Shown piece by piece: positions 860 through 6,454 of a stretch of DNA of 12,637 nt. This DNA comes from Thermoflexales bacterium (GTDB taxonomy: Bacteria; Chloroflexota; Anaerolineae; Fen-1058). The DNA lies in the NCBI GenBank assembly GCA_030834835.1, contig JAUQXD010000995.1:1-12637 (forward strand), in the 5' to 3' direction. The translations under genes and the position numbers were made by a program. How positions within the stretch are numbered: the first letter of the stretch is position 1; every line of letters begins with the position of its first letter. The notes under the pieces are model-generated. The model saw only the letters and a list, made by a program, of their open reading frames with translations. It did not search any database and was not told where the DNA came from.

Positions 860-934
860 CGGGGCGTAGCGCAGCTCGGCTAGCGCGCACGGTTCGGGTC
901 CGTGAGGTCGGAGGTTCAAATCCTCTCGCCCCGA
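860..934 (+). tRNA. tRNA-Pro (anticodon CGG)
   Basis: A complete cloverleaf can be folded. The acceptor stem is CGGGGCG (860-866) with CGCCCCG (927-933). The D stem is GCGC/GCGC (869-872, 883-886) with GG in its loop. The anticodon stem is CACGG/CCGTG (888-892, 900-904) around loop TTCGGGT, giving anticodon CGG at 895-897. The variable loop is 905-909. The T stem GGAGG/CCTCT (910-914, 922-926) closes on TTCAAAT. The discriminator base is A934 and CCA is not encoded. The first base pair C-G and anticodon CGG indicate proline, reading CCG codons. Bases from 900 onward are duplicated at 6419-6454, so the 3' part of this gene is the attachment site of the element to its right. Confidence 0.95.
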
Positions 935-935
935 C
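900..935 (+). repeat. attL: 36-bp direct repeat copy 1, within tRNA-Pro
   Basis: This segment runs from the 3' side of the anticodon stem through the T arm and acceptor 3' strand to one base past the discriminator. It is identical over 36 bp to 6419-6454, and the two copies diverge immediately on both sides. It is the typical attachment core for tyrosine recombinases that use the 3' half of a tRNA gene. Integration at this point keeps the tRNA gene intact. Confidence 0.93.
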
Positions 936-937
936 TT

Positions 938-1007
938 TTGGGGGGTATTTTTCCCCCAATCTGTACAAAAGAGAATCGCCCGGCGTGGTTTGCCGGGCGA
1001 TTCTTTT
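938..1007. terminator. Element-borne hairpins downstream of the tRNA, bidirectional terminator
   Basis: A small hairpin (TTGGGGG 938-944 with CCCCCAA 953-959) is followed by a strong one. Its 12-bp perfect stem is 973-984 with 992-1003, loop GTGGTTT, followed by TTTT on the plus strand and by a T-rich run on the minus strand (AAAAGA just before the stem on plus). It would stop tRNA-Pro transcription from the left and the integrase operon from the right. Confidence 0.8.
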
Positions 1008-1091
1008 ACTGTCCGAACTGTCCGAACTGTCTGACTGTCCAGGGAGTTTTTTACATACCCCACCCAAAAATACTCATACTCTTTGGACAGT
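1008..1091. repeat. ACTGTCC repeat cluster between attL and int, putative integrase arm sites
   Basis: ACTGTCC occurs at 1008-1014, 1017-1023 and 1034-1040, with a one-base variant ACTGTCT at 1026-1032, so four near-copies are spaced 8-9 bp apart. An inverted copy (GGACAGT) is at 1085-1091. Short repeated motifs beside the att core and the integrase gene are where arm-type binding sites of tyrosine recombinases are found. That role is inferred from position only. Confidence 0.5.
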
Positions 1092-1150
1092 TCCAGCAAG
1101 CCGGTACTCTGCCGGTACCGGCCCTTCCAAATGGTGATCAATGGTTAGGC

Positions 1151-4704: not shown

Positions 4705-4710
4705 GATGAT

Positions 4711-4756
4711 CAAACAAAAAGAGTGTAACTATCTTCAGTTACACTCTACTCTTTTT
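4711..4756 (-). terminator. Intrinsic terminator after the 257-aa gene
   Basis: A 10-bp perfect stem (GAGTGTAACT 4721-4730 with AGTTACACTC 4737-4746, 6-nt loop) is followed on the minus strand by TTTTTGTTTG. A T-run also follows on the plus strand (CTCTTTTT), so it may work both ways. It separates the 257-aa gene from the coiled-coil/zincin operon. Confidence 0.88.
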
Positions 4757-4774
4757 CAATGTGACACGTCTAGA

Positions 4775-5548
4775 TCAATGCGCGTTGCGTTGACCTATGC
4801 GTTGCTTTTTCTTTTTCGGGAAAAGACGCCTACCAATTGCTTGCTTGAATGAGCCTCTGGTACTTCGATCCATCTTCTTGATCCCGGTTAGTGACTCCCC
4901 GGTATAGGATAAGAACCAATCGAAAGCCTTATCGTAAGCCTCTTGATAAGATTTTTCGCCGCGATTGGCAATCATTTCTGCGGCCTTATCATATGCTGGG
5001 TCCCAACCAGCTCGTTCTCGTTCCGATTTTCGACTTAATACGATCGGCCCGATAGGTTCATCGAAGCCCGGCGGCGTGCCTGGAAACAATTCGCGCTGAA
5101 GCCGTTGGAGTAAGTCGTCAACGATGAATTTGTGACCAGCAATCAGCCGGGCGTGTTCCGCGCCAATGTGGTTTAGAGTCTCGATAAATTCTTGTGGGTT
5201 GCTGGGCTTCTCATGCCCGGCGGGCGCCCGGCGCTCTGGTTTATCGAATCGCAGTTCGACAAGCCCCGCCGATCGGCGGCGTGTCTTCACACGTCCGAGG
5301 TCTTCACCCGCCGATCGAATGATGTACACGGCGCTCGATTGTCCAACCTCTGCCCGTTCTACTTCACCCGGCCCGCGCCTATCAAAGAAGTCAGACACGG
5401 CAGAATCTACTACATCAAATTCTGCCGGGAAAATAAGCCGAAACACCCCGGACCCGCGCTCGATTCCCGTTGCCGCCTCAATCAATGCTTGGGGCACGTC
5501 ATAGGCAGCCGGTATAAGTTTGACCCGTTCGTGTTCGCTTAGCTGCAT
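4775..5548 (-). CDS. Orphan 257-residue basic-tailed protein
   Basis: I do not recognise this family. The protein begins MQLSEHERVKLIPAAYDVPQ, has no signal peptide or membrane segment, and seems to have an N-terminal mixed alpha/beta part (residues 1-105). This is followed by a helical segment around residues 115-150 (NPQEFIETLNHIGAEHARLI). A C-terminal helical part (from DPAYDKAAEMIANRGEKSYQ to FKQAIGRRL) precedes a strongly basic tail with KKKKQR (about residues 246-251), which suggests nucleic-acid binding. GAGGCGAT sits directly before the ATG as RBS. The gene has its own terminator and so forms a single-gene unit. As the largest cargo gene it could be a replication, mobilisation or immunity factor, but no motif supports any of these. 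Confidence 0.65.
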   Translation of the reverse strand: MQLSEHERVKLIPAAYDVPQALIEAATGIERGSGVFRLIFPAEFDVVDSAVSDFFDRRGPGEVERAEVGQSSAVYIIRSAGEDLGRVKTRRRSAGLVELRFDKPERRAPAGHEKPSNPQEFIETLNHIGAEHARLIAGHKFIVDDLLQRLQRELFPGTPPGFDEPIGPIVLSRKSERERAGWDPAYDKAAEMIANRGEKSYQEAYDKAFDWFLSYTGESLTGIKKMDRSTRGSFKQAIGRRLFPKKKKQRIGQRNAH

Positions 5549-6418
5549 ATCGCCTCACACCACACAAGGGGCTGAGTTTGATCTGAGTCTGATCACAATT
5601 TCTTTCAGGCTGCCCACCAAACGCAAAGGCCGCCCACATCTCAATAGATGCAAGCGGCCTACAGAATCACCCACCACACCGGCCGCCCACATCGGCCAAT
5701 CATCCCCATTTTATCACACAAGCATGTTAGAGCGCACACCGTGAAACCCGAAAAATCCGATCTTTTCTTTCGGGCCGCCTAGGGCGTTGCAGTAACGCAA
5801 TTGCTACGCGCATGATCGAAGCGGCGCGCGCTGCCCCCTGCCCCACATGAAATGATATTTCAGCCGTAGAATCATCGGCCCACGCCCGCCCGCCAGCCCA
5901 CCGATTTTTTGGGGTAGGGGAGTGGGATACTGTAATTGTCGAGTGGCCCGCGCTGCGCACCTGGTCTACAGTCGCCGATGAAGGGCACGCCGATCGCCGG
6001 CAGTCCGGGCCGCAGTCCGATCGCGATCGATGCCAGGCACGCCACGAGCGCCGCTGGCAGAATGAGCGCCCGCCGGCCACGGCCACGAGCGCCGATCGCT
6101 GGGCACGCGCTGCGCACGCGGGCCACGTCGCCGATGAAGGGCACACCGATCGCCGGCAGTCCGGGCCGCGAGCGCCGATTGCTGCGCACTATAACGTGCC
6201 GGCCACAGCGATCGAGGCGATCGGCGTGGCCGGGTGTTCGGGCTGACAACATGTGATCCATGCGCCGATCTAAGTCTACTCTAAAACCCGCATGAACGTC
6301 AAACGCTGCGGCCCTTTTGCGTGTTCGATCGAGTACCGTTTCGATTCAACTATTTTCAGGACAAATAGCAGTGTCACAACACACCAAATCTATACTTACT
6401 CAGGATTAGGTTATTGTA
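5549..6418. other. Gene-poor stretch of the element (870 bp) with repeats
   Basis: I find no convincing gene here. The open frames in 5727-6261 lack ribosome binding sites and overlap each other on both strands in very GC-rich DNA. What can be seen: a dyad TGATC/GATCA (5579-5583, 5591-5595) some 30-45 bp upstream of the 257-aa gene; a hairpin with arms AGGCCGC/GCGGCCT near 5626-5660 enclosing CATCT/AGATG; a 43-bp duplication at 5971-6013 and 6127-6169; several CGATCG palindromes; and an AT-richer stretch (about 6340-6418) next to attR. It may hold an origin or regulatory sites, or be the remains of a gene. Confidence 0.5.
5971..6169. repeat. 43-bp direct repeat pair
   Basis: Positions 5971-6013 and 6127-6169 match at 42 of 43 positions (G/A difference at 5989/6145) and are 156 bp apart. 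A further shared 12-bp block, CGCGCTGCGCAC, precedes each copy (5949-5960, 6107-6118) at nearly the same distance. Shorter related pieces (ACGAGCGCCG) recur between them. The 156-bp period is a multiple of three, so a decayed coding duplication cannot be excluded. Confidence 0.85.
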
Positions 6419-6454
6419 CCGTGAGGTCGGAGGTTCAAATCCTCTCGCCCCGAC
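6419..6454 (+). repeat. attR: 36-bp direct repeat copy 2, tRNA-Pro 3' fragment
   Basis: This is identical to 900-935 and contains the 3' anticodon-stem strand, T arm, acceptor 3' strand and discriminator of tRNA-Pro. It has no 5' half, so it is not a tRNA gene. It marks the right boundary of the integrated element. Confidence 0.93.

Follow-up and report, generated by a model that had tools for sequence, protein, structure and literature searches.

A compact integrative element at tRNA-Pro in an uncultured Chloroflexota genome, possibly dependent on a helper

Tyrosine recombinases of the class considered here usually use the 3′ end of a tRNA gene as attB. The pSAM2-type AICEs of Actinobacteria are compact, tRNA-integrated elements with an integrase and an excisionase. 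Here we describe an island of 5,519 bp (repeat start to repeat start) in a tRNA-Pro(CGG) gene of a Thermoflexales bacterium (Chloroflexota, Anaerolineae). It lies in a 12,637-bp stretch, the entire contig JAUQXD010000995.1 (C585), called the window below, from a metagenome-assembled genome of 6.48 Mb in 1,452 contigs with 7% contamination. The island shares with the AICEs its compactness, tRNA integration and pairing of integrase and excisionase; it differs in that a Pfam scan of the window gave no RepSA-type replication gene and no FtsK-like transfer gene. Our preferred reading, which we rate at about an even chance, makes it a compact integrative element that depends on a helper (a "hitcher", either phage-satellite-like or mobilizable).

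Two described groups bear on this reading. Integrative mobilizable elements (IMEs) are defined, in a 2024 review, by an origin of transfer (oriT), with or without a relaxase (PMC11389934). The PICMI satellites of Vibrionaceae carry an integrase, an int-overlapping gene (ATGA) needed for excision, an AlpA gene (detected with PF05930 or PF12728) and unknown genes, with packaging genes unidentified; their size is about 6 kb by our arithmetic from an 8-copy concatemer of about 49 kb (PMC10803314). The island is similar to them in its few genes, its integrase and AlpA-type regulator (hth92, which matches PF12728), its int-overlapping ATGA gene, its unknown genes and its lack of identified packaging genes. 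The overlapping gene, zr125, is likened to PICMI iolg by this overlap and not by sequence. Unlike PICMIs, the island has no Pfam match to a primase (DUF3987/DUF5906), occupies tRNA-Pro rather than fis, belongs to a different phylum and has no identified helper. With neither primase nor fis site, it cannot be counted among the PICMIs; they are its nearest working analogue, and it may work as they do.

An island bounded by a tRNA repeat, with an intact integrase

The sequence-only reading of the window had proposed an integrative element in tRNA-Pro, bounded by a perfect 36-bp repeat of the tRNA 3′ end, with a complete tyrosine recombinase at one edge and seven genes on one strand, and these points hold. 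ARAGORN and Rfam both identify the tRNA, the repeat (900-935 and 6419-6454) is exact, and the tRNA-Pro(CGG) 3′ end stays complete at the island edge. A perfect 36-mer pair within 12.6 kb is far above chance expectation. When the repeat was searched against the host genome at E ≤ 1, the sole other match among those listed was one of 30 nt in contig C238, inside a stretch 85% similar to the window's tRNA-Pro gene. All seven named genes (int, zr125, p116, hth92, the HExxH protein gene, the gene for a 202-aa coiled-coil-like protein and orf257) lie on the minus strand according to the open reading frame (ORF) list. The island thus has the tRNA gene, the 3′-end repeat and the intact integrase by which a tRNA-targeting tyrosine-recombinase element is recognized.

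The integrase carries a Pfam Phage_integrase domain, and its start was corrected to 2191, where the database copy and homologues begin. In an alignment of the window protein with 22 relatives the catalytic-type residues R154, K184, K187, H265, R268, H294 and Y304 are invariant, with H265-x-x-R268 forming a motif within this set. Immediately upstream, overlapping by ATGA, lies zr125, whose DUF5679 zinc ribbon scores 32.1 bits (Pfam cut-off 27). A search with the integrase found 397 homologues (120 of them listed), and an alignment of 37 was used to fetch 91 loci: the best 80 of 88 genome loci and 11 viral contigs. The 80 genome loci mostly bear Chloroflexota or Anaerolineae titles, with some bins under other names. 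Among whole genomes, 16 of 396 from the class carry the integrase at E ≤ 1e-60, and 9 of 400 from the phylum carry it at E ≤ 1e-50, all nine belonging to the same class (own genome counted in both). Judged from these homologues, the protein belongs to a tyrosine-recombinase family found mainly in Chloroflexota. zr125 had tblastn matches in 75 of the 91 integrase-fetched loci and in none of 20 tRNA-fetched loci, and is a conserved partner of this integrase family; having it directly upstream of the integrase places the island in what we call the zr-int family.

Across 102 surveyed sources, 144 ORFs in 100 loci matched the integrase model: 81 had a zr ORF directly upstream, 16 had no room for one and 47 had none, many of the last being, by eye, additional integrases of XerC-like type encoded on the other strand. 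Of 86 zr ORFs, 17 show the ATGA overlap, and the window's is one of them. Because the sets include duplicate records (L062/L162, L065/L165, L066/L168), these counts are not all independent. In 51 loci of the wider family a tRNA follows the integrase ORF at a distance of at most 2.6 kb, and in all of them integrase and tRNA were convergent, as in the window (34 tRNA-Met, 9 tRNA-Asn and 8 others). The locus L086 was the only one of the 51 at tRNA-Pro(CGG). This layout, together with ten relatives that have a perfect repeat over 33 nt of the tRNA tail, bears out integration into tRNA-Pro.

An empty tRNA-Pro site, put forward as a check on mobility, was not found in the related genomes examined. 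In G001, of the same genus, the best tRNA match is a GGG tRNA-Pro at 85%, and the contig carrying the major facilitator superfamily homologue has no tRNA. The flank is taken as chromosomal because its fumarase-like protein is 94% identical to a G001 protein; an ORF adjoining the fumarase-like gene (10019-10579) resembles, by eye, an RNA 2′-phosphotransferase (Tpt1/KptA). Island genes score below the flanking genes in codon usage, which fits a foreign origin and is not independent proof, the score having been trained on the same flanking genes. When 41 genomes were scanned with each of two patterns, the hairpin motif that borders attR on its outer side was met again behind three tRNA-Pro 3′ fragments, two in G003 and one in G004. 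Two of these fragments stand immediately in front of XerC-like integrase ORFs; behind the intact tRNA-Pro(CGG) genes of G003 and G004 there are other hairpins. The motif could be a native terminator, or it could mark the border of an earlier element. In the two G003 copies, the loop of one is inverted relative to the other. tRNA-Pro(CGG) has the look of a hotspot: in loci L030-L035 of the same-family genomes G003 and G004 there are additional fragments of the tRNA-Pro 3′ end, and XerC-like integrase ORFs come after several of them.

Other elements with the same module

Thirteen related loci, 3.8-9.6 kb in size, are bounded by a tRNA-tail repeat, ten of them perfectly over 33 nt. They were taken from 21 rows, of which eight were dropped: four without this integrase, two forming a tRNA-Ala pair and two with 4-5 mismatches. 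L119 was retained though doubtful, with 4 mismatches, metabolic genes and an integrase fragment. By models built here, 11 of the 13 carry a Rep gene (6 Rep_trans-like, 5 HUH ORF2/G2P-like) and 12 an XRE gene. When ten proteins of the relatives were compared with Pfam, seven exceeded the cut-off: Rep_trans in L071, L082, L108 and L111, and ORF2/G2P in L059, L066 and L101. The L067 protein fell below it (E 0.022), and two further L101 proteins had no match.

Five loci at tRNA-Met or tRNA-Asn with Rep genes (L082, L090, L091, L098, L101) look inovirus-like by eye, having small membrane and secreted proteins; the label is provisional because PHROGs matched none of the four candidate coat-region proteins taken from L082 and L101. 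Further relatives were seen on contigs that also carry terminase- or portal-like ORFs, and some adjoin STAND-like NTPase ORFs, all these ORFs being named by eye. Islands with a zr-int pair, again by eye, are also seen in L160, L161 (own genome), L162, L163 and L164: four of them (L160, L162, L163, L164) encode another integrase, XerC-like and on the opposite strand, with tRNA-Met seen in L163 and L164, and the neighbour of zr in L160 and L161 is a large STAND-like NTPase ORF. The host genome holds five integrase matches, complete in C585 and C82, cut by the contig end in C50 and partial in C3 (internal stop) and C817. The zr-int integration module is widespread, common to rolling-circle, possibly inovirus-like and tailed-phage-like elements.

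The island shares with eleven rolling-circle or possibly inovirus-like elements (L059, L066, L071, L082, L089, L090, L091, L098, L101, L108, L111) the integrase family, the zinc-ribbon partner, a tRNA target with repeat and a similar size. Unlike them, it has no XRE and no HUH or Rep_trans gene, and its integrase lies in another well-supported branch. In a tree of 63 rows this 20-row branch holds the window integrase and 19 database proteins (support 100/99); it adjoins a tRNA-Met two-integrase branch (89/86) and is separate from the rolling-circle/inovirus-like one. The 19 nearest integrases (P0003-P0021) are 50-60% identical to that of the window. The nearest integrase on a viral contig is 49% identical, and that contig has terminase-like and portal-like ORFs, named by eye.

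Eight fetched loci have in common a hairpin of about 140 nt, whose core TGAGCGAAGCGGC is invariant and which occurs alongside both Rep types. The six placed by coordinates all stand beside an XRE gene, five of them in front of a modelled Rep gene. In this hairpin 17 of 49 pairs changed on both sides, which was reached in 0 of 500 shuffles; sliding the partners cut paired cells from 94% to 27-44%, a control biased towards the structure, whose prediction drew on these eight sequences themselves. L118 has a weaker match (33 bits), an exact search of viral contigs for a 21-nt core gave one further contig, and an Rfam scan of five of the eight loci returned tRNAs alone. In these integrative elements the hairpin may act as a single-strand origin or as a regulatory RNA. 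The window hairpin was rejected as a member (covariance model R1: 13.1 bits, E 0.12); the window's best score with R1 was 13.3 bits (E 0.1), against 117.5-153.7 bits for members.

Among 16 Rep-carrying survey loci (15 distinct, L168 being a record of L066), the most structured segment lies 200-620 nt upstream of Rep in L059, L066, L071, L072, L089 and L111. In L066 a distant segment scores nearly equal, and a repeat run on L168 scores it higher.

Cargo, operator-like sites and a structured segment

Features of the window, and the shared hairpin of its relatives, are collected in Table 1.

Table 1. Coordinates of features in the window (locus coordinates where a locus is given)
Feature	Position	Strand	Basis or remark
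tRNA-Pro (CGG), integration target	860..935	+	ARAGORN, Rfam
attL, tRNA-Pro 3′ 36 nt	900..935	+	direct repeat with 6419-6454
Two adjacent terminator-like hairpins	936..1010		between attL and int
int, tyrosine recombinase, 346 aa	1151..2191	-	Pfam domain, alignment
zr125, DUF5679 zinc ribbon	2188..2565	-	Pfam; HTH-like N-terminus by eye
p116, small protein, internal duplication	2575..2880 or 2575..2925	-	101 aa (ATG) or 116 aa (GTG)
hth92, HTH_17 protein, excisionase/AlpA-type	3125..3403	-	30.4 bits, cut-off 27
O2, palindromic operator-like site	3428..3457		about 25 bp upstream of hth92
HExxH protein, 161 aa	3460..3945	-	gluzincin-like motif HEFAH...EAEAW by eye
Coiled-coil-like protein, 202 aa	3951..4559	-	directly upstream of HExxH gene
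O1, palindromic operator-like site	4588..4617		upstream of coiled-coil gene
Large branched hairpin	4623..4714		25-nt arms, 42-nt spacer
Terminator-like hairpin	4720..4747		behind orf257, matched on both strands
orf257, 257 aa	4775..5548	-	self-match alone in protein search
Operator half-site CACACCACACAA	5556..5567	+	about 8 bp upstream of orf257
Repeat-rich stretch, 129-aa ORF	5872..6261	-	eighth ORF; 43-bp in-frame duplication
attR, perfect 36-bp copy of tRNA-Pro 3′ end	6419..6454	+
Hairpin	6458..6496		directly outside attR
140-nt hairpin	L059:8092-8232; L066:8381-8517; L071:8198-8338; L089:8219-8358
140-nt hairpin	L102:8444-8582; L111:1754-1894; L114:1569-1707; L125:9835-9975

No transfer, replication, virion or defence function could be assigned in the island with Pfam, PHROGs, NCBIfam or PADLOC. 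A rolling-circle Rep was sought in the window with Pfam, PHROGs and models built from the relatives and was not found, and no window ORF matched the relatives' Rep_trans, HUH or XRE models. Nor did family-library scans of the window proteins give a relaxase, or Pfam and PHROGs scans a pI/Zot-type morphogenesis ATPase of the inovirus kind. The earlier view that the element has no recognizable transfer, replication or virion genes was thus upheld.

Known relatives are lacking for several of the cargo genes. p116, hth92, the HExxH, coiled-coil and orf257 proteins and two repeat-region ORFs gave no tblastn match in 111 loci. Of three queries (int, orf257 and the HExxH protein) searched against 5.8 billion proteins, the last two each matched itself alone; this search can miss distant relatives because shared 5-residue words are needed. 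orf257 had no match among plasmid or phage records, and scanning viral contigs by pattern turned up neither it nor the HExxH or coiled-coil protein. Among 399 other genomes, 4 seemed to hold relatives of orf257, which were set aside, three alignments being inspected and judged chance; those of the HExxH protein, in 4 of 99 other genomes, are weak. The coiled-coil protein has weak matches, among them one to JetC (E 0.004). Single-sequence structure models of orf257 (mean pLDDT 52, low confidence) and the HExxH protein (mean pLDDT 46) are too poor for use; Foldseek with them gave a single viral match under 1e-3, with TM 0.17/0.23. The HExxH start is more likely 3945, behind GAGAGGAG, which is our choice.

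hth92 reaches 23.9 with an NCBIfam excisionase model (cut-off 28.8), and from its family match is a candidate directionality factor or regulator. Weak matches to hth92 in L131, L054 and L078 (E 0.0009-0.005), and one to the HExxH protein in L108 (E 0.03), were set aside as small helix-turn-helix (HTH) proteins or chance resemblance. p116 has by eye a hydrophobic segment near its N-terminus and no family match in Pfam, PHROGs, NCBIfam or PADLOC; the "duplicated small protein" of the sequence-only reading has a real repeat, and the duplication is internal (34 nt, 33 of 34 matching). The coding score of the 5872-6261 ORF is ambiguous, and 5549-6418 may therefore be partly non-coding.

Operator-like sites precede three gene groups: orf257, coiled-coil/HExxH and hth92-p116-zr-int. 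The palindromes O1 and O2 share the half-site CACACCGCACAA, and a half-site search found seven matches at ≤2 mismatches, four of them at 0-1 (shuffles: mean 2.1, seven reached in 1 of 200), with a pattern derived from the sites themselves after inspection. The two hairpins between attL and int may be element-borne terminators for the tRNA and int. Of 178 segments, the three most structured overlap 4559-4768, and the top one, 4619-4768, lies between orf257 and the coiled-coil gene; the ranking is rough because each segment had 12 shuffles. In its arms and spacer the large hairpin here resembles repeats that precede Rep in L082 and L101, and among 14 elements such long repeats with 30-50-nt spacers are rare in shuffles. 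It is a candidate cis-acting origin, transfer or packaging site. Inverted repeats such as those within 4588-4747 would also suit an oriT.

Helper dependence and its alternatives

If the island is helper-dependent, Int and the overlapping zr125, with hth92 as directionality factor or switch, would excise and integrate a circle across the 36-bp core. Since the three gene groups share an operator type, one element-borne regulator may hold them silent until a helper arrives. The structured stretch 4588-4747 would serve in cis, as origin, transfer or packaging signal, for another element's machinery, a role suggested because Rep, relaxase, primase, terminase and coat genes are unrecognizable. The orf257, coiled-coil and HExxH proteins would be helper-interaction or host-benefit cargo.

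Several observations weigh against helper dependence. A helper has not been identified, and neither circle, excision nor empty site has been seen. The cargo is single-copy, so its upkeep as a unit cannot be demonstrated, the operator pattern was drawn post hoc, the integrase branch closest to the window comes without known genomic context, and the window hairpin falls outside the hairpin family seen in the rolling-circle relatives. Most bounded relatives carry Rep, and an unrecognized replication protein (e.g., orf257) would make the element autonomous.

The last two points lead to an autonomous integrative plasmid, in which an orphan protein, most likely orf257, would be an unrecognized replication initiator and 4588-4747 its origin. 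The six Rep loci with their top structure ahead of Rep agree with this account, as does the position of the window's strongest structure, also intergenic and in front of a gene pair. However, that structure lies behind orf257 and not ahead of it, the structure-before-Rep layout is missing in 9 of the 15 distinct Rep loci, the window ORFs give no HUH or Rep_trans signal, and orf257 has no HUH motif by eye; we consider a plasmid unlikely. Less probable still is a decayed prophage: a tailed phage would have lost its virion genes, and the island would be its integrase end with some leftovers. Wider-family integrases do occur on contigs with tailed-phage-like genes (by eye), but the integrase is intact, the att repeats are perfect over 36 bp, the genes are close-packed on one strand, and PHROGs gave nothing for orf257 and matched the HExxH protein (E 0.15) and the coiled-coil protein (E 7e-4) weakly. 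We give least credence to an iOriT-type IME, an origin of transfer alone moved by a conjugative element, which would agree with the inverted repeats, the missing relaxase match and a definition that allows oriT without relaxase (PMC11389934).

Within the helper-dependent reading, a bolder version is possible and decidedly tentative: the island as first seen member of a Chloroflexota satellite family separate from known satellites, with the zr-int module, a three-operator switch, new helper-interaction proteins and, in 4588-4747, a replication or packaging signal for a co-resident phage or rolling-circle element. The earlier suggestion of an undescribed satellite or IME type is not contradicted, and such a type is not established, the cargo set being single-copy. 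No second copy of that set turned up in the proteins, genomes, related loci and viral contigs searched, and hence there is no cluster of like islands.

A literature search, judged by titles and abstract starts, found among the papers listed no description of these elements, and nothing on DUF5679; the word 'Chloroflexi' is absent from the main text of PMC6813254. According to the 2024 review, knowledge of helper-dependent elements rests on few elements in few species (PMC11389934). The island at tRNA-Pro combines an intact integration module with a lack of known transfer genes, which makes it a concrete candidate for a new helper-dependent element in uncultured Chloroflexota, and the zinc-ribbon/integrase pair offers a handle with which to list such elements across Anaerolineae.

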